Shown here one piece after another: positions 14,235 through 23,921 of a stretch of DNA of 23,921 nt; position 1 is the stretch's first letter, and each line of letters starts with the position of its first letter. The position numbers were made by a program, and so were the translations under genes. The DNA is from a virus. The notes below the pieces were generated by a model that had not been told where the DNA came from, searched no databases, and worked only from the letters and a program-made list of their open reading frames with translations. The stretch spans positions 1 to 23,921 of the IMG/VR virus record IMGVR_UViG_3300021091_000419. One strand, written 5' to 3'.

Positions 14235-14279
14235 AATAGATCTATGAATAATTTATCCAATTCATTGGAATAATCTATT
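14235..14279. other. Nested inverted repeat in the 63-base gap before the 229-residue protein gene
   Basis: AATAGAT (14235-14241) pairs with ATCTATT (14273-14279). Inside it, TCCAAT (14256-14261) pairs with ATTGGA (14264-14269) around a two-base loop. Together they could form a bulged hairpin ending nine bases before the ATG at 14289. There is no T-run typical of an intrinsic terminator and no Shine-Dalgarno sequence. A TATTTATA (TATAAATA on the minus strand) lies at 14276-14283. Its function is unknown; it could be an RNA processing or translation-control structure, or chance. Confidence 0.35.
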
Positions 14280-14288
14280 TATATTAGA

Positions 14289-14978
14289 ATGGTAAAGTTT
14301 TTCAAAAAAGAAGATATTATTAATACTAGGTTTGCTATATCAAATGAGCAAAACTATAACAACATTTTAGCCGATCTTTTAATAGGAAATGATGAGGATA
14401 ATGCTATATTTCCACTTTTTATTCCTACATTTGAGTGTAATGACAATCAATCTGGCAGTTGTAATGCGAGTTTAAATTCTGAAGTTTTTTTGGAGATTGA
14501 TAATAACAAAGATGACGATTTAAAGTTTGAAATAGGGAAAAATTTGTTTACGACTAAAAGTTGTTTTTTTCCCGTTGATAGTCAATATTATGATACTACA
14601 ACCAACCCAACAAATAGTAACGGTACTTATCAAGGTTTAGTTTATAATACCATTGAAAAAATGTATTATAATAATTATAACAACTGTTATAATATATTTG
14701 GATCAAGCACGTTTGATATTTCAAAAACAAATAAAACTATTGCCAAAGAAATTTCTGTATTTACTTTAACTGTGAACCAAGCCGGCGATGAAATTCTACC
14801 GAAATCAGTAGTTATTAAGAATCAATCGGGTGATATTGTTACTGATATAGTTGACGATGGAAATGGAAACTTAATATTATCAGGTACTTTTTTTGTTGAA
14901 AATTACGAACTAACCAGTAGTTCAAATCTAATTGATAATTTAGGTTTGTATGGTGTTGGAAAGATAATTTTATCATGA
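14289..14978 (+). CDS. Phage structural protein of unknown function, coupled to the propeller gene
   Basis: This 229-residue protein has no recognised enzyme motif. The N-terminal half contains a cysteine pair in FECNDNQSGSC and two further cysteines (KSCFFP, NNCYN), more than its neighbours. The middle, VYNTIEKMYYNNYNNCYNIF followed by GSSTFD, and the later segment with EISVFTLTVN, KSVVIKNQSGDIVT and DDGNGNLILSG follow a pattern that I associate with repeated structural proteins of large tailed phages; this is recognition, not a database match. The C-terminus NLIDNLGLYGVGKIILS looks like a shortened form of the 'VGLY...LA.gKL' module of the flanking genes. Its TGA overlaps the next ATG (ATGA at 14975-14978), so translation of the two is probably coupled and the products may assemble together. 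Confidence 0.83.
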   Translation: MVKFFKKEDIINTRFAISNEQNYNNILADLLIGNDEDNAIFPLFIPTFECNDNQSGSCNASLNSEVFLEIDNNKDDDLKFEIGKNLFTTKSCFFPVDSQYYDTTTNPTNSNGTYQGLVYNTIEKMYYNNYNNCYNIFGSSTFDISKTNKTIAKEISVFTLTVNQAGDEILPKSVVIKNQSGDIVTDIVDDGNGNLILSGTFFVENYELTSSSNLIDNLGLYGVGKIILS

Positions 14979-17491
14979 AATTGACAAATTTTAGAAATGA
15001 AAGATTTGGTTATAATGTAGTAACAAATGGTACATTCGTTGCTGTGGGAAATCCTCCTTCAAAAAAGTATTCTGAATTTGAAGATTTTACACGTGCGGGA
15101 GAAATCTGTCTTTATAAGAAAAACCGTTTCGAAAAAAACTATTCATTTGTAAGATCTTTTACTAAACCTAGATTATCAGATTTAACAAATTTATATTCAG
15201 TTTACGCGGAACAAAGCAGTAGTGCTGCGCGTACAGGCTCTATTGTACAAGAAAGTGGATCAAAATCACAAAATTTAACAACATGTAGCTTAATATTATT
15301 AGAAGGATCTGAATATAATTTAGAATCTCATTATGGTATTAGTGTAGATTTATCTGATTATTTTCTTGCTATAGGTGATCCTGCATTTTCCCAAAGTTTT
15401 GAAAGACTCTTAACTACTAGTGGTTCGAGCGTCGATATCTATAGAATTGCAAATTCAGTCGCTGAAACTGATGGTTGTTTGGTTGAAGAAAACGAGACTT
15501 ATGAAATATCAAATTTACCATTTTGTTTTATTAAAAACGATGAAAAAAGTTTTGGTAAAGTAGTTAATGTTGGTAATGAAGTTTTGGTTATTTCTGCTCC
15601 TGATGCTAATAATGGTAAAGGTAAAGTTTTTATTTACAGATATGATACTACCAAATGTGATGGATATGTCCTTGAATCCACTCTTTCTTCAAGCGACTCT
15701 ACACAGTATGGATTCGGAACATCAATTTCGTTAGACAAATATAATGAAGATAAAATCTTAATTGCTAACGCACAAATTAGTCCACATACATCTTCTACTG
15801 TTCATTTGTATAAATATATCAACGGTAGTTGGGGTGAAATCCAAACTTTTTCAAAAGATATAAGGGACAAATGGATAAAAAATCAATTAGATAGTTTCGG
15901 CGATACACCACCTTATATCATTTCACAGAGTTTTGATAAATTTGGTCATTCTGTATCAATATATGATAAAGTAATTGCAATCGGCGCGCCCAATGACGTT
16001 ACATATTACCAAACTAGTGCATCTGCGATACTACATCAAGAAGGTGCTTTTTATTTATATGCTTTAGATGAGTGTACTACTTCAGGTAGTTATAATTTAG
16101 TTTCAAAATATTATGGAGGTTCCGAAGTTTTTAAAGACAACTTATATGGGTATAGTGTAAGTGTATATGATAATAAAATTTTGGTAGGTTCACCAAAGCC
16201 ATATTTTCCATTTAGTTCACTTTATGTTTCTTCATCGGTACATCGGTTTAACAAAAATATTGAAGAAAATACATTAGGTGCCGCACAATATTTAGGTCAA
16301 GTATTTATATATAATTTTGAAAATAAAACTCTTAATAAACTAACTACACATCCTATTACAAAACGAAAAACTACTGATTATCCGTTCTCTGCATTTGGAA
16401 GTTCTGTTTCATTATCTTCCAGAAATTTAGCTATTGGTTCACCTATAGAGTTAAATAACGATTTTTACTTAAATAATCCTATAATAAGCGAAAGTATTTA
16501 TGCACAAGGAGATTGTGGTGTTTCTACAGCTTCATATTTTATAATAGAACAAAGTGCATCAAACAGTTTAAATCAATATCAAAATATTGTATTGGTTGAA
16601 GAACAAGATTTTATTTCTCCAATTAAAGGAAGAAGTTTTATTTATGATTTTGAAAATTTAAGTGAAAACTCTCAAATAGGTAATGTTTTTTATAATAATA
16701 ACAAAATTGTAGTAAATAACACAGGCAGCATTTTACAATCATTATTACGTGATCCTATAAATTACAACAATCCGTACTATTACATAGATTTTAAAAGTCT
16801 AATAACTTTAAGAGAAACTCAATATATTTGTACCATAGATAAAGGTGAATTCAATATATCAACAAATCCCACTTCTTATGATTTTACCAGTTTCGACTAT
16901 GGAATTTTAAATAAAATGGTATTTGATTTTGATAACCTTGATATTGTTTTAAGATATATAATTTACAAAAATACCTCGCCAAAAACAGAAGAATGGTGGA
17001 ACTATGTGTCGTTCAGCGACGGTGGTAAAAATATTTTCGATTACAATGTTTCTTTACGTGACAACTTTTATAATAATAAACTCACTCAAAAGTTGTTATG
17101 TCAACTTAATAATATTAATTTTGACGTAAACAATGACGGTAAGGCCGATCTCCTCGATTTGGGACTAATTTGGAAGTATTGGATAAGTGAATTAAATATC
17201 ATTAACTATAGTAGTTATATAAATCCATTATCAAGAAACAAAACAATTGACCAACTCTTATTTTTCTTAAATGAAAAAACAGGAAAATTTGTTAAAAAAG
17301 AAGTAAATAATGAATTTTTCAAATTTAACTATAGTTCATCTATAGATTCAACCGGTTCTTATCTAGCTCCATATATCACACAAGTAGGTTTATATAGCGG
17401 AACAGATTTAGTAGCTTTGGCTAAATTAGCACACCCTATTAAAAATACAGGACAATATCCTATTAATATTATTGTAAAATGGGATACATAA
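14975..17491 (+). CDS. Seven-bladed FG-GAP-type beta-propeller virion protein with an EF-hand/dockerin-like calcium loop
   Basis: The product has 838 residues. Seven repeats of the form (F/Y)G-x-(S/N/K)-V-x(5-7)-(A/V/L)-(I/V)-(G/S)-x-P start near residues 11, 120, 193, 247, 323, 391 and 474. Examples are FGYNVVTNGTFVAVGNP, YGISVDLSDYFLAIGDP, FGHSVSIYDKVIAIGAP and FGSSVSLSSRNLAIGSP. Several are followed by a 'G.vfiY' strand (GKVFIYRYD, GQVFIYNFE). This is the pattern of FG-GAP/integrin-type propellers; blade 4 (YGFGTSISLD) is the most diverged. Residues 717-728 are a canonical 12-residue calcium loop, DVNNDGKADLLD, followed by a helix as in dockerin/EF-hand units. Residues 800-838 carry the C-terminal module shared with the 367-residue protein. 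It probably acts outside the particle as a peripheral baseplate or receptor-binding protein. That role is inferred. Confidence 0.88.
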   Translation: MKLTNFRNERFGYNVVTNGTFVAVGNPPSKKYSEFEDFTRAGEICLYKKNRFEKNYSFVRSFTKPRLSDLTNLYSVYAEQSSSAARTGSIVQESGSKSQNLTTCSLILLEGSEYNLESHYGISVDLSDYFLAIGDPAFSQSFERLLTTSGSSVDIYRIANSVAETDGCLVEENETYEISNLPFCFIKNDEKSFGKVVNVGNEVLVISAPDANNGKGKVFIYRYDTTKCDGYVLESTLSSSDSTQYGFGTSISLDKYNEDKILIANAQISPHTSSTVHLYKYINGSWGEIQTFSKDIRDKWIKNQLDSFGDTPPYIISQSFDKFGHSVSIYDKVIAIGAPNDVTYYQTSASAILHQEGAFYLYALDECTTSGSYNLVSKYYGGSEVFKDNLYGYSVSVYDNKILVGSPKPYFPFSSLYVSSSVHRFNKNIEENTLGAAQYLGQVFIYNFENKTLNKLTTHPITKRKTTDYPFSAFGSSVSLSSRNLAIGSPIELNNDFYLNNPIISESIYAQGDCGVSTASYFIIEQSASNSLNQYQNIVLVEEQDFISPIKGRSFIYDFENLSENSQIGNVFYNNNKIVVNNTGSILQSLLRDPINYNNPYYYIDFKSLITLRETQYICTIDKGEFNISTNPTSYDFTSFDYGILNKMVFDFDNLDIVLRYIIYKNTSPKTEEWWNYVSFSDGGKNIFDYNVSLRDNFYNNKLTQKLLCQLNNINFDVNNDGKADLLDLGLIWKYWISELNIINYSSYINPLSRNKTIDQLLFFLNEKTGKFVKKEVNNEFFKFNYSSSIDSTGSYLAPYITQVGLYSGTDLVALAKLAHPIKNTGQYPINIIVKWDT

Positions 17492-18981: not shown

Positions 18982-19899
18982 ATGTCATTACAAACTGAAA
19001 AAGTAGTTTCAACGTTAAATAATTTATTGAATCAGACTGCTAGAATTAGAAAAGGTACCGATGCGGTATATCATTGTCCTGTTTGTAATCATTATAAACG
19101 TAAACTTGAAATCAATTTATTAACAGGTAAATATAATTGTTGGGTATGTGGATTTAGTGGTGTAACGTTCAAAAGTTTACTGAAAAAATTACAAGCCGGT
19201 AAAGAATATTATGAAATATTATGTAATATAAAGGTAAAAAACACATTTTCAAAAGAAGACAAAAAAATATTAACTTTACCAGAATCGTTCAAACCGTTGA
19301 TTAAACTCTCGAACGATATTGAATATAAAAATGCATTAAATTACTGTTTGTCGAGAGGAATAACAGGTTATGACATCGCTAGATATAATATAGGCTATTG
19401 TGATGACGGCGTTTTTAGAAACAGAGTGATAATTCCTTCATATGACGAAAATGGTTCATTGAATTTTTATTCAGGTAGAGATTATTATAACAGTAAAATG
19501 AAATATAGACTGTGTGACTCAACTAAAAATGTAATTGGATTTGAGTTACTTATTAACTTCAACGAGCCAATTACATTAGTTGAAGGACCATTTGATGCTT
19601 TTGCTGTAAAATATAATGTAATTCCATTATTTGGAAAATTATTATCAGAAAAGTTAAAGATTAAAATTTTGGAAACTAAACCACCACGTATAAATGTGTT
19701 GTTAGACAACGACGCAATTAAAGAAAGTATAAAGATGTGTGAGTTCTTATATAAGAATAGTATAAATACATATTTTATAAATTTAGACGGAAAAGATCCA
19801 AATGAAATTGGTCATGAAAAAACTTGGCAAAACATACATTCGGGTGTTAAGATAGATGAAAGTACGATTTTCAGACTTAAATTGAGTAATAAAATATGA
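18982..19899 (+). CDS. DNA primase, zinc-finger plus TOPRIM (DnaG/T4 gp61-type)
   Basis: I take the ATG at 18982 as the start; a TTG directly before it (18979) is less likely. The 305-residue product has an N-terminal CHC2-like zinc ribbon with C32, C35, C53 and C56 (CPVC...CWVC). The TOPRIM core follows: E201 in LVEGPFDAFAVKY, D242 and D244 in VLLDNDA, and KDPNE at 271-275. Length is near T4 gp61 (342). In the family it makes RNA primers for lagging-strand synthesis, normally with a separate replicative helicase, which is not in this window. There is no fused helicase domain. The last codon overlaps the next start (ATGA at 19896-19899), so it is translationally coupled to the Mre11-Rad50 fusion. 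All expected metal and TOPRIM residues are present. Confidence 0.92.
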   Translation: MSLQTEKVVSTLNNLLNQTARIRKGTDAVYHCPVCNHYKRKLEINLLTGKYNCWVCGFSGVTFKSLLKKLQAGKEYYEILCNIKVKNTFSKEDKKILTLPESFKPLIKLSNDIEYKNALNYCLSRGITGYDIARYNIGYCDDGVFRNRVIIPSYDENGSLNFYSGRDYYNSKMKYRLCDSTKNVIGFELLINFNEPITLVEGPFDAFAVKYNVIPLFGKLLSEKLKIKILETKPPRINVLLDNDAIKESIKMCEFLYKNSINTYFINLDGKDPNEIGHEKTWQNIHSGVKIDESTIFRLKLSNKI

Positions 19900-22800
19900 T
19901 TTTATTAAAAAATACAGAATCAAAAATTAATGCAATTGTACATATAGCGGATATTCATATTCGTCTAACCAAAAGACACGATGAATATATCACAGTATTT
20001 GAAAGATTTTATCAAGCTCTAGATAAAGTAAAAAAATTAGGCTCTGTTCTAGTTATCGCTGGTGACATTTTTCATAATAAAAGTGATTTGAGTCCTGAGT
20101 GTGTGAAAATTGGTAGTGATTTTCTTAAAAACTGTGCTGATAGAATACCTACCATATTAACCGCTGGAAACCACGATGCTACGCTTGCGAATAAATCTCG
20201 TTTAGATTGTTTGACTCCTATTGTTGATGCTCTACAACATAATAATTTGTATTATCTGAAAGCCACAGATGTATATCGGTATGAAAATATACTATTTAAC
20301 AATTTTAGTGTATTTGATGATTCCGAAAAATATATCATGTATAAAGATATATCGTCTAAATACAAAGTTGAAACCGATCATCACATTGCATTATTTCATG
20401 GTCCGGTCAATAATGCTATTACAGATATTGGATATAAGGTAAGTAATCGTGCTATTACAAACGAATTGTTCGACGGTCATCACATTTCAATGTTAGGTGA
20501 CATTCATAAACATCAAATTCTACAAGAATATGATGAAACTGATGAAAAGCCTGTTATTGTTTATGCTGGTTCTATGATTCAACAAAATCACGGCGAAGAA
20601 CTTAAAGGTCACGGATTTTTGATGTGGGATTTAAAACGTAGAGTATTTAAACATTATGAATTACAAAATGAATATGGATACTTCACATTAGAAATCAACA
20701 AAGGTAAATTAGTTACTGATATTACGGAAATGCCGAAAAAGGTTCGTATACGAACCAAATGTTTTGAATCTATTCCATCACAAGTAAAAGAGGTGATGAA
20801 TGATATCAAAAACAAATGTAAAATTCTTGAATCAACCTTTATTAGGGTAGATGAAGCCGAAGTTGATCTCACTCTTAAGAATGGTCAAATTTTTGATATT
20901 CATAATATTTTAGATGTAGATTATCAGAACAAACTAATTGAAGATAACTTACTTGCAAAAAATATAGACAACAGTCTTATCGAAAAAGTTAAAGAACTAA
21001 ATAAGTCAATTAACAAGGAAATTTCCAAAGACAAATCTCCGAAAAATATTCGTTGGAAACCAAAGACTTTTGAGTTTGATAATATGTTTAGTTATGGTGA
21101 GAATAATTATATTGATTTTACCAAATTAAAAGGTACTATTGGTTTATTTGCTCCGAATGCTAGTGGTAAATCAAGTATAATGGATGCACTGGCTTTTTGT
21201 GTATTTGATAAATTTAGTAAAGGATATAAAGCTGTACACGTATTGAATACTCAGAAAATGAGTTTCAAATGTAAGTTTAATTTTGAAGTAAACGGCGTAG
21301 ATTACTTTATTGAACGAGAAGGCAAATCTGATAAAAAGGGTAATATTAAAGTTGAAGTTAAATTTTACAAGTTAGAAAATGATAAAGAAGTACCATTGAA
21401 TGGCGAAGCACGTAGAAGTACCAATGACATTATTAGAGATTATGTTGGTACATACGATGACTTTATTCTAACGGTATTAAGCATTCAAAACAGTAAAGCG
21501 AGTTCATTTATTGATTTGGGACAAACTGAACGAAAGGATTTGTTGTGTCAGTTTATGGGATTAACTGTATTTGATCAATTATATACCCTCGCAAATGACA
21601 GATTTAAAGAAACTAACACTTTGTTAAAAAATGTAAGTAAGGATCAACTATTATCAGAATTAACTCAGATTTCTTCGAGTATTGAATTAAATAATAAAAA
21701 TATTATCAAATACAATGATGAAATAAAACAGTTAGAGTCTAAAAAAGAAGAACAAAACAATAAATTATTGGAATTATCAAATAATGTAATTAAAACTACA
21801 TCTTTCGATTTTAATATTACCGAATTAGAATCCGAAAAAACTGACTTGGAATCGAAAATTTCAAAATTTCAAGGTGATATTATTGAAAAAAAGAACAAAT
21901 TATCTATAGTTGAATCAGATCTGTACAACTTATCCTCTTCTTTAAAAAGTTGTGAAAATATTAACAATGATTATGAACAATATAAATTAAAAAAAGAAGA
22001 GGAGTCTAAAAAGAGTTCTGAAATCGAAAAATTAAAAGTAATTGTCAAAAATAAAATTGATAAACTTAAAAAATTAGAAGAACACAAATATGATCCAAAT
22101 TGTATATATTGCGTAAATAATGTTTTTGTAAAAGATGCAATTAAAACTAAAGAAGAACTTGAACTTGACAAAAATAAAGGTAAAATATTAGTTGATGAAT
22201 TTAATGTGATTAAATCTATATTGGATTCTTTTGGTAATATCGAATTACGTTATAAAGAATATCAACACACTACTGCTGAAAAGGTCAGATTAGATAAAAG
22301 CAAGGAAATATTGTCTACTGCAATATTGAAAGACGAAAATTATATAATAACATTACAAAACAAATTAAAAGAAACCAATCAAAAGATTGAAACATTTTAC
22401 AAAAATAAAGATATTATTGAAAATAACTTAAAATTGATAATAGAAATAAACAGTGTAAAAACTGAAGTCAGAAAATATGAATTAGATATTAAAAATATAA
22501 ACAGTAGTATTTTTACAGCATCCACAGAAAAAGGAAGAGTTGAATTACAATATAAAAACACTACCGATCAATTAAACAAAGTAAAGGAACTTGAAGAATC
22601 ATATGAAGCTTATAAGTTATATTCTAATATTATAAGTCGTGATGGCATTCCTTACGAAATCATTACCAAAACTCTGCCTGAAATAGAAAAGGAAATAAAT
22701 AATATTCTTCATCAATTAGTAGAATTTAATGTTTCGATGCAAACTGACGGTAAAAACATCATGACTAATATTGTTTATGATGATAAACAATGGCCACTCG

Positions 22801-23078
22801 AAATGGCTAGTGGTATGGAAAAATTTGTCAGTGGATTGGCGATTCGTGTTGCTTTAATTAATATTAGTAACTTACCACGACCAAATATTATTTGTATCGA
22901 TGAAGGTTTTGGTTGCGCGGATAGTGACCATTTAGGACAAATGGGCGCTTTGTTTAATTATTTAAAACATCAATTCGATTTTATCTGGATTATCAGTCAT
23001 TTAGACCAAATGAAAGACATGGTAGATAGTCAAATTGAAATTAAAAAAGAAAATGGATTTAGTAAAGTAAATTTTTAA
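19896..23078 (+). CDS. Fused Mre11/SbcD nuclease and Rad50/SbcC ATPase (gp47-gp46 in one chain)
   Basis: One 1060-residue frame contains both subunits. The Mre11 part shows all phosphoesterase motifs: D19 and H21 (HIADIHI), D57 and H60 (AGDIFHNK), N92-H93-D94 (TAGNHD), H168 (FHGPVNN), and H204/H206 (LGDIHKH). A helical linker at about 345-380 is where Mre11 normally binds Rad50. The Rad50 part starts near 386 and has Walker A at 419-427 (APNASGKSS, with Ala for the first Gly). It continues with a Q-loop (VLSIQNSKASSFIDL), coiled-coil arms around a zinc hook C736-x-x-C739, a signature segment (MASGMEKFVSGLAIRVAL), Walker B at about 998-1003 (IICIDE) and the H-loop H1035. Known role in T4: gp46/gp47 resect DNA ends for recombination-dependent replication. 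T4 uses two genes (560 and 339 residues). No stop or frameshift separates the halves. Confidence 0.95.
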   Translation: MILLKNTESKINAIVHIADIHIRLTKRHDEYITVFERFYQALDKVKKLGSVLVIAGDIFHNKSDLSPECVKIGSDFLKNCADRIPTILTAGNHDATLANKSRLDCLTPIVDALQHNNLYYLKATDVYRYENILFNNFSVFDDSEKYIMYKDISSKYKVETDHHIALFHGPVNNAITDIGYKVSNRAITNELFDGHHISMLGDIHKHQILQEYDETDEKPVIVYAGSMIQQNHGEELKGHGFLMWDLKRRVFKHYELQNEYGYFTLEINKGKLVTDITEMPKKVRIRTKCFESIPSQVKEVMNDIKNKCKILESTFIRVDEAEVDLTLKNGQIFDIHNILDVDYQNKLIEDNLLAKNIDNSLIEKVKELNKSINKEISKDKSPKNIRWKPKTFEFDNMFSYGENNYIDFTKLKGTIGLFAPNASGKSSIMDALAFCVFDKFSKGYKAVHVLNTQKMSFKCKFNFEVNGVDYFIEREGKSDKKGNIKVEVKFYKLENDKEVPLNGEARRSTNDIIRDYVGTYDDFILTVLSIQNSKASSFIDLGQTERKDLLCQFMGLTVFDQLYTLANDRFKETNTLLKNVSKDQLLSELTQISSSIELNNKNIIKYNDEIKQLESKKEEQNNKLLELSNNVIKTTSFDFNITELESEKTDLESKISKFQGDIIEKKNKLSIVESDLYNLSSSLKSCENINNDYEQYKLKKEEESKKSSEIEKLKVIVKNKIDKLKKLEEHKYDPNCIYCVNNVFVKDAIKTKEELELDKNKGKILVDEFNVIKSILDSFGNIELRYKEYQHTTAEKVRLDKSKEILSTAILKDENYIITLQNKLKETNQKIETFYKNKDIIENNLKLIIEINSVKTEVRKYELDIKNINSSIFTASTEKGRVELQYKNTTDQLNKVKELEESYEAYKLYSNIISRDGIPYEIITKTLPEIEKEINNILHQLVEFNVSMQTDGKNIMTNIVYDDKQWPLEMASGMEKFVSGLAIRVALINISNLPRPNIICIDEGFGCADSDHLGQMGALFNYLKHQFDFIWIISHLDQMKDMVDSQIEIKKENGFSKVNF

Positions 23079-23107
23079 TAAAAGGCATATATTTTTTCAA
23101 AAGTTGT

Positions 23108-23115
23108 TATAAATA
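23108..23115 (+). promoter_or_regulatory. T4-type late promoter octamer TATAAATA upstream of the tail sheath gene
   Basis: A perfect TATAAATA lies 66 bases before the sheath ATG, in the left inner arm of the leader hairpin. With T4 spacing (octamer at about -13 to -6), transcription would start near 23121, in the apical loop. The symmetric arm contains the same octamer on the minus strand (23141-23148). By chance several copies are expected in 24 kb of such AT-rich DNA, and copies do occur inside genes (2461-2468, 19761-19768). The support is the position in the gap before a late gene. Confidence 0.6.
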
Positions 23116-23166
23116 GTAAGATGTTCTAGTTTTTAGACACTATTTATAAAGTAAACATAACTTTTG

Positions 23167-23172
23167 AAAGGA
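23167..23172 (+). promoter_or_regulatory. Shine-Dalgarno sequence (AAAGGA) of the tail sheath gene
   Basis: AAAGGA ends nine bases before the ATG at 23182, which is good spacing and decides the start. It is one of the clearest ribosome binding sites in the window, where most genes lack one. It forms the base of the right arm of the leader hairpin, so it would be paired in read-through RNA and free in RNA starting near 23121. Confidence 0.8.
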
Positions 23173-23181
23173 TACTAAATT

Positions 23182-23921
23182 ATGCCAATAACAGAAGGTG
23201 GACGTTTCAGTCCAGTACAACAAATCGTAAGTCCGGGTGTATTTACCCGCGAAAATGACCTATCAGGTCTCGCGCAAGGTGTTGCTAACATAGGTGGGGC
23301 AATAGTAGCACCATTCGCACAGGGCCCGGCATTTTTTCCAACTCTTATACAAGACGTTCCAACACTTGAATCTAAATTCGGTATTGCAGACGGCGTGTAT
23401 TATGGTCCATATACTGCCAAAGAATATTTACAAGAACAAGGTATCGTAACCGTAGTTCGTGTAGGTGGTTTGACAGGCTATTGGCAAAAAAATCCGTTGG
23501 TAATTTATGCTCAACCAGGCGAATGGCAACGTAATAGTGATGCGGGTGCTCTAACCACAGCTTCATTTTTATATTTAAACAGTGACAATTATATTGCAAA
23601 CATTGTTTATACACACGCATCTACATTGTATAGTATTACGGGCAGTCAGAATACGACATATTCACAAGCAGGTGGTGGTGCAGATAAATCAGGTTCATTT
23701 ACACCAAGCATAGCCGATACTAACACACTAGGCACAACTGCTACTGTTACATATCCAACCAACGATGCTATTAATAGCTTTATAAGCTCAATTAACTCAT
23801 TAACATATGCAAGCGATTTGAGCTCATCTTTAGCAGCTGCAAAAACTTCACGTAAGCTTGTTTCGTTAACCGTATCAAGTATTCTTCCCGCATTTAGTGC
23901 TTCGATTACAAAACAAGCAGC
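23182..23921 (+). CDS. 18: Tail sheath protein, gp18-like (3' truncated by the window)
   Basis: The frame is open from the ATG at 23182 to the window end, giving the first 246 residues. The opening (MPITEGGRFSPVQQIVSPGV, then FTRENDLSG) is the standard start of T4-like contractile sheath proteins, where 'SPGV...E.D.s' is highly conserved. It is followed by IGGAIVAPFAQGPAFFPTLI, LESKFGIADGVYYGPYTAKE and a GIVTVVRVGG strand, the typical first sheath domain. Later residues are a Ser/Thr-rich insertion domain. Known role: the sheath polymerises on the baseplate and contracts to drive the tube through the host envelope. The start is supported by AAAGGA at 23167. The first 200-300 bases are visibly richer in G+C than the rest of the window, as expected for a highly expressed gene. 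Confidence 0.95.
   Translation, partial: MPITEGGRFSPVQQIVSPGVFTRENDLSGLAQGVANIGGAIVAPFAQGPAFFPTLIQDVPTLESKFGIADGVYYGPYTAKEYLQEQGIVTVVRVGGLTGYWQKNPLVIYAQPGEWQRNSDAGALTTASFLYLNSDNYIANIVYTHASTLYSITGSQNTTYSQAGGGADKSGSFTPSIADTNTLGTTATVTYPTNDAINSFISSINSLTYASDLSSSLAAAKTSRKLVSLTVSSILPAFSASITKQA

Follow-up and report, generated by a model that had tools for sequence, protein, structure and literature searches.

A predicted late promoter inside a hairpin that may gate translation of a phage tail sheath gene

Introduction

Phage T4 places a late promoter within a hairpin that hides the ribosome binding site at genes e, soc, 49 and I-TevI (reviewed in PMC3014915), and the hairpin of gene e is not universal among T4 relatives (PMC3014915). 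Late promoters of the T4 family carry the box TATAAATA, which takes the form NATAAATA in cyanophages, and the late factors are gp55, gp33 and gp45 (PMC2988020, PMC2984593). In T4 this box lies roughly one helical turn upstream of the transcription start (PMC2988020).

Here we analyze the leader of a tail sheath gene in a virus record of 23,921 bases from a T4-like phage, the whole of which we refer to as the window. Similar to the T4 e leader, RNA that reads through into this leader would hide the Shine-Dalgarno sequence (SD) and/or the AUG in a helix, and the computed accessibilities of the two leaders are alike. Unlike the e leader, the window carries the promoter motif TATTTATA rather than TATAAATA, and carries it in the right inner arm; its gene encodes a major structural protein; its hairpin is laid over an inverted promoter core; and its switch is a prediction from computed folds, in a phage whose host probably belongs to the Bacteroidota, which rarely use SDs.

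Compared with T4-family late promoters, TATTTATA is likewise an 8-base AT box with a predicted start about one turn downstream and no conserved -35 region in the aligned non-sheath sites, although in the same frame it differs from TATAAATA at two positions. As in the T4-family late system, relatives of the window phage encode a protein resembling sigma region 2; unlike in T4, the gp55 family itself is undetected in 16 relative contigs, and the relatives' candidate bears a C-terminal helical extension that T4 gp55 lacks. Flavobacterium phage vB_FspM_immuto (Immutovirus; hereafter immuto) also has TATTTATA ahead of its late genes and a homologue of the sigma candidate (KNV73_gp118), but its sheath leader has neither an SD nor an ATAAATA arm at 31-32 bp.

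Results

The sheath leader and its surroundings

The window contains genes for the baseplate and tail, for a RuvC-like protein and for a primase, together with a fused SbcD/SbcC gene and the first part of the sheath gene. The two genes that flank the leader are as follows.

19896..23078, + strand: fused SbcD/SbcC (gp47/gp46-like) gene, from matches to phrog_77 and phrog_100
23182..23921, + strand: tail sheath gene (gp18-like), from tblastn matches to annotated tail sheath proteins and a weak match to Pfam Gp18_domIII_N

The gp18-like gene is incomplete and continues past the contig end. The hairpin is located at 23079-23181, between these two genes, where no terminator-like site was found on the + strand, and the gp46/47-like gene is the presumed source of RNA reading through into the sheath gene. 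The SbcD-like (gp47) and SbcC-like (gp46) domains share a single reading frame of 1060 aa. Elsewhere the window encodes a 790-aa protein rich in GAAGSLVGGVTG-type repeats (260-2632) and an 838-aa FG-GAP repeat protein (14975-17491). For comparison we collected about 50 relatives having the sheath start; the six long relative contigs are G001, G003, G004, G006, G008 and G010.

A predicted late promoter motif

Among 202 distinct upstream regions of the relatives, 121 contain TATTTATA on the sense strand, compared with 7 expected, and 26 contain TATAAATA, compared with 8 expected. The excess of TATAAATA comes mostly from the left arm of the sheath hairpin, and elsewhere this motif is at or near background. 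Ahead of late genes the enriched motif is thus not the T4-type TATAAATA or NATAAATA but TATTTATA. The latter is among the top upstream 8-mers in each of the six long contigs, with intergenic sense:antisense counts of 36:3, 27:2, 12:2, 14:2, 13:1 and 14:1. (A control with the reversed pattern was uninformative, since ATATTTATA is identical when read backwards.) Some copies lie directly 3' of terminator-like sequences.

The same motif stands 24-38 bp ahead of the terL, gp20, sheath, tube, hub and tape measure genes of immuto, always in the sense direction. Phage Mel-JY01 contains 15 copies, compared with 2.2 expected; the first 240 kb of LR756508 show no enrichment, although a homologue of the sigma candidate is present. 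A search confined to the open-access literature found no description of TATTTATA as a promoter in phages. On these motif statistics, TATTTATA is strongly supported as the late promoter of the phage group.

Across the six contigs, 72 of the 123 intergenic copies sit 11-15 nt ahead of an ATG (for example, in the window, TATTTATA at 14276 precedes an ATG at 14289), and the aligned non-sheath sites share no conserved -35 region. Because of this spacing, and because the T4 late box lies about one turn upstream of its start (PMC2988020), we infer a late transcription start near 23153 in the sheath leader. Many late mRNAs of the group are predicted to be leaderless, with TATTTATA serving as their -10 element.

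The initial annotation had instead taken TATAAATA, in the left inner arm, for a T4-type late promoter with its start near 23121, in the loop. The motif is indeed present at 23108-23115 and matches the T4 consensus perfectly; its ATAAATA is retained in most close sheath leaders, and RNA begun at 23121 would likewise leave the SD open (computed unpaired probability 0.49). Distant sheath leaders, however, keep TATTTATA and lose ATAAATA, and the T4 gp55 family is undetected in 16 relative contigs. On the motif counts we reject TATAAATA as the promoter, and we accord this reading very little probability. What stands of the original proposal is that late RNA would lack the left arm: the start near 23153 predicted from TATTTATA also leaves that arm out, so that the switch still stands as a proposal once the promoter is corrected.

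A hairpin enclosing the SD and the start codon

The features of the leader, in order of position, are listed here.

23084..23089, + strand: GGCATA, which in the fold pairs with TATGCC (23181-23186) over the start codon
23090..23107, + strand: left outer arm (anti-SD arm) TATTTTTTCAAAAGTTGT, which in the fold pairs with 23157-23174
23108..23117, + strand: left inner arm TATAAATAGT, which in RNA pairs with 23139-23148 and in DNA repeats the promoter core in inverted orientation
23139..23148, + strand: right inner arm ACTATTTATA, overlapping the promoter, from the fold and repeat analysis
23141..23148, + strand: TATTTATA, a -10-type element predicted to be the late promoter for the sheath gene, from enrichment and position in relatives
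23153..23154, + strand: predicted late transcription start, 12-13 nt past the first T of TATTTATA
23157..23174, + strand: right outer arm ATAACTTTTGAAAGGATA, which includes the SD, from the fold
23167..23172, + strand: SD AAAGGA, from the sequence; GAAAGGA is present in most relatives

Two nested repeats, of 10 and 11 pairs with a 21-base spacing, had been described initially, and repeat analysis bears out their arms and coordinates. The inner repeat (23107-23117/23139-23149) is perfect over 11 pairs, 21 nt apart; the outer one (23090-23105/23159-23174) is 16 nt long and 88% complementary, and holds a perfect stretch of 10 pairs (23096-23105/23159-23168). The minimum free energy (MFE) fold pairs 23084-23089 with 23181-23186, 23090-23107 with 23157-23174, 23108-23117 with 23139-23148, and 23118-23122 with 23129-23133. 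It encloses both the SD and the sheath start codon, whose burial had previously been missed, as had the copy of TATTTATA in the right inner arm, the motif of importance here. This stable fold, SD included, is computed for RNA 23079-23190 at -29.9 kcal/mol (z -6.0; equal stability in 0 of 200 shuffles), but RNA 23121-23190 reaches only -4.6 kcal/mol (z +1.2).

On the read-through RNA the computed probability of being unpaired is 0.004 for the SD and 0.003 for the AUG, compared with 0.57 and 0.42 on RNA begun at 23153, both of which are moderate as open values. In computation, then, the SD is hidden on read-through RNA and open on RNA begun within the hairpin, as first claimed, and at the strength of T4 gene e. 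The same pipeline applied to e gives unpaired probabilities of 0.001 (SD) and 0.035 (AUG) on read-through RNA, rising on late RNA to 0.55 and 0.98; for T4 soc the effect appears at the AUG only (0.007 versus 0.47).

Our flank-shuffle test randomizes 23040-23107 while keeping the sequence from 23108 onward. The SD was buried equally well in 3 of 2400 such trials and the MFE was reached in none; that is, the SD is freed when the flank containing the left outer arm is shuffled. Since one hairpin was chosen among about 16 gene starts, we estimate a corrected significance for SD burial of about 0.02. The hairpin is real and non-random.

The hairpin starts right behind the upstream stop codon, where an RNA processing or termination element ending the upstream operon might be placed, and other relatives (L060, L066, L074, L075) have a terminator-like inverted repeat directly 5' of TATTTATA. 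The window's stem, however, has no T-run behind it, it has no match in Rfam, the + strand is free of terminator-like sites as described above, and the start codon of the next gene lies within the stem. An element of this kind is, in our judgment, highly improbable.

A proposed translational switch

If the sheath gene is driven by TATTTATA (23141-23148), which the long hairpin contains in its right inner arm, then RNA reading through from the gp46/47-like gene would carry both arms, the left arm would pair with the SD and the start codon, and translation would be blocked; RNA begun near 23153 would lack the left arm and would be translatable. We give about even weight to the reading that the sheath gene of this lineage has a late promoter inside a hairpin that hides its ribosome binding site and gates its translation. 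Repression of sheath translation by the fold in the cell, as we infer it, would be a property of this phage alone or of a small lineage. The e/soc-type switch first proposed for the sheath thus retains the computed hiding of the SD and AUG and the lack of a + strand terminator-like site, but neither its promoter arm nor a family-wide reach. If the reading is true, the T4 trick of hiding a start on early RNA and freeing it through a late promoter within the hairpin has a counterpart in a distant phage group, at a gene for a major structural protein and with a different late signal.

Conservation of the hairpin among relatives

Over 28 nonredundant leaders, SD accessibility on the read-through RNA is 0.44, compared with 0.45 when the flanks are shuffled (Fisher P 0.33, or 0.62 with the window omitted; L054 was left out of the test), and the mean accessibility of -16..+3 across the relatives' leaders is at chance. 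A family-wide translational switch is not supported by these results, and the SD-hiding arms, which had been expected to be conserved, are not kept across the 28 more distant leaders. We take the SD-hiding hairpin to be local to the window phage or a small lineage, and most relatives are without it.

Individually, SD burial reaches P < 0.05 in three leaders: the window, L041 and L042 (P 0.04 for the latter two, which are close to each other). Each of the three has a gp46/47-like gene directly upstream, a pattern noticed post hoc; L002-L004 have this gene upstream too, yet show no SD burial. An exact-pattern search for near relatives of the leader found only L009-type leaders or unrelated sequence, and no close relative in which to seek compensatory changes.

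We also looked for covariation of the hairpin in 18 leaders. Some measures of covariation exceed column shuffles, but a control slid by +3 scores higher, so that there is no reliable signal; by pair counting, 39.5% of cells in the SD-covering helix are paired. The covariation anticipated in the initial annotation is therefore not convincingly present, and the SD helix is poorly paired.

The left arm as a possible DNA element

ATAAATA occurs in 24 nonredundant sheath leaders and is absent from seven. In 22 of the 24 its distance to the downstream TATTTAT is 31 or 32 bp, the exceptions having spacings of 65 and 76, and in all 24 its opposite strand reads [AC]TATTTAT, the same as the promoter consensus. 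Within 18 close leaders the element is invariant, even where the flanking pairs have been lost. It also occurs at a similar distance ahead of a few unrelated late promoters, at both tandem and divergent gene pairs.

These patterns are consistent with an explanation purely at the level of DNA, in which the inner inverted repeat consists of two late-promoter cores facing apart, about three helical turns from each other, and the RNA hairpin is a by-product with no translational switch. The left core could be half of a divergent promoter pair and give RNA antisense to gp46/47, or it could belong to the sheath promoter as an element upstream of it. The chance level of SD burial family-wide also fits such an explanation, which we consider quite possible, if somewhat short of probable. 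It leaves unexplained, however, the burial of the SD and AUG by the outer arms, which goes far beyond shuffles, and most late promoters, the immuto sheath promoter among them, lack the left element. In the reading that we prefer, which retains the switch, the left ATAAATA has probably been preserved for its role in DNA, as an inverted promoter core some three turns off, more than as a conserved RNA stem, and the SD-hiding outer arms are probably a local addition to it.

A candidate late sigma factor

A gp55-like late factor had been expected elsewhere in the genome. The T4 gp55 family (phrog_234) was found in none of 16 relative contigs, which are fragments and in which the controls also scored 0; the sliding clamp gp45 gave partial phrog_223 matches in two of the 16. 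A weak Sigma70_r2 match, however, pointed to a conserved protein, which we call the sigma candidate.

L140:1111-2115 (G003:97702-98706), - strand: sigma candidate, from a profile match
L142-L221, L223:28174-28872 (immuto), L228 and L229: homologues of the sigma candidate, from homology

Four of the six long contigs encode the candidate, as do at least 80 IMG/VR loci, and the annotated parts of the window fragment have no gene for it. Its homologues in immuto, Mel-JY01 and LR756508 are annotated as hypothetical or carry no annotation. The candidate's profile aligns in register with that of gp55 (hhalign P 0.00063, probability 28%). In a low-confidence structural model (mean pLDDT 58) the best structural matches are nearly all sigma factors, none of them significant; a sequence search of solved structures gave no match. 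This protein, with its C-terminal extension, is a candidate for a divergent gp55-type late sigma, judged from profiles and a model. The expected factor may thus exist in divergent form, although the T4 family itself is undetected.

Translation context

SD-like 5-mers precede 7-14% of genes in the six long contigs and 2% in immuto. This low share is what would be expected in Bacteroidota, whose ribosomes fail to recognize, or largely ignore, SDs (PMC9976891). The sheath gene is an exception with an SD. Few genes of G001, G003, G004, G006 and G010 carry an SD-like sequence. From contig to contig this small set recurrently includes the sheath gene and others that appear to be structural, and in G001 it also includes the sigma candidate; an SD-dependent subset of genes, in hosts that usually ignore SDs, is possible. 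The gene for bS21 is absent from 11 relative contigs and immuto, and present in Mel-JY01 and LR756508. If the host of the window phage belongs to the Bacteroidota, hiding the SD may weigh less than hiding the AUG, since SDs go largely unused by their ribosomes (PMC9976891); burial of the start codon would still have an effect.

A broader picture, which we offer tentatively and regard as less than probable, is that of a large T4-like phage group, at least some of whose members infect Bacteroidota, with a late code of its own: a divergent gp55-like sigma with a C-terminal extension would read TATTTATA, most of these promoters would put the start codon at +1 and so make many late mRNAs leaderless, and the sheath gene with its SD would be an exception, gated in addition by a hairpin in the window lineage. 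A by-product, which may carry more weight than the switch, is a late-promoter motif that can be recognized, along with a candidate sigma, in a phage group where many genes lack annotation. Both could be tested in Flavobacterium phage immuto, which is available as an isolate. A further by-product is a group of late mRNAs that are probably leaderless, in hosts whose ribosomes make little use of SDs.

Other elements in the relatives' sheath leaders

The sheath leaders L007, L010, L012, L014, L017 and L021 contain a perfect or near-perfect 10-bp palindrome, GTTATATTTA-5-TAAATATAAC, that overlaps the late promoter and is possibly operator-like or an alternative RNA hairpin. Six others (L060, L066, L070, L074, L075, L078) have an inverted repeat just 5' of the sheath's TATTTATA, with changes on both sides (for example, ATCCAAA/TTTTGGAT and GTTCAAAA/TTTTGAAC), which is possibly the terminator of the upstream unit. 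In L031 (G008:1500-2208), a sheath-type promoter at 1500 is separated from the sheath start at 2208 by extra sequence that is apparently coding.
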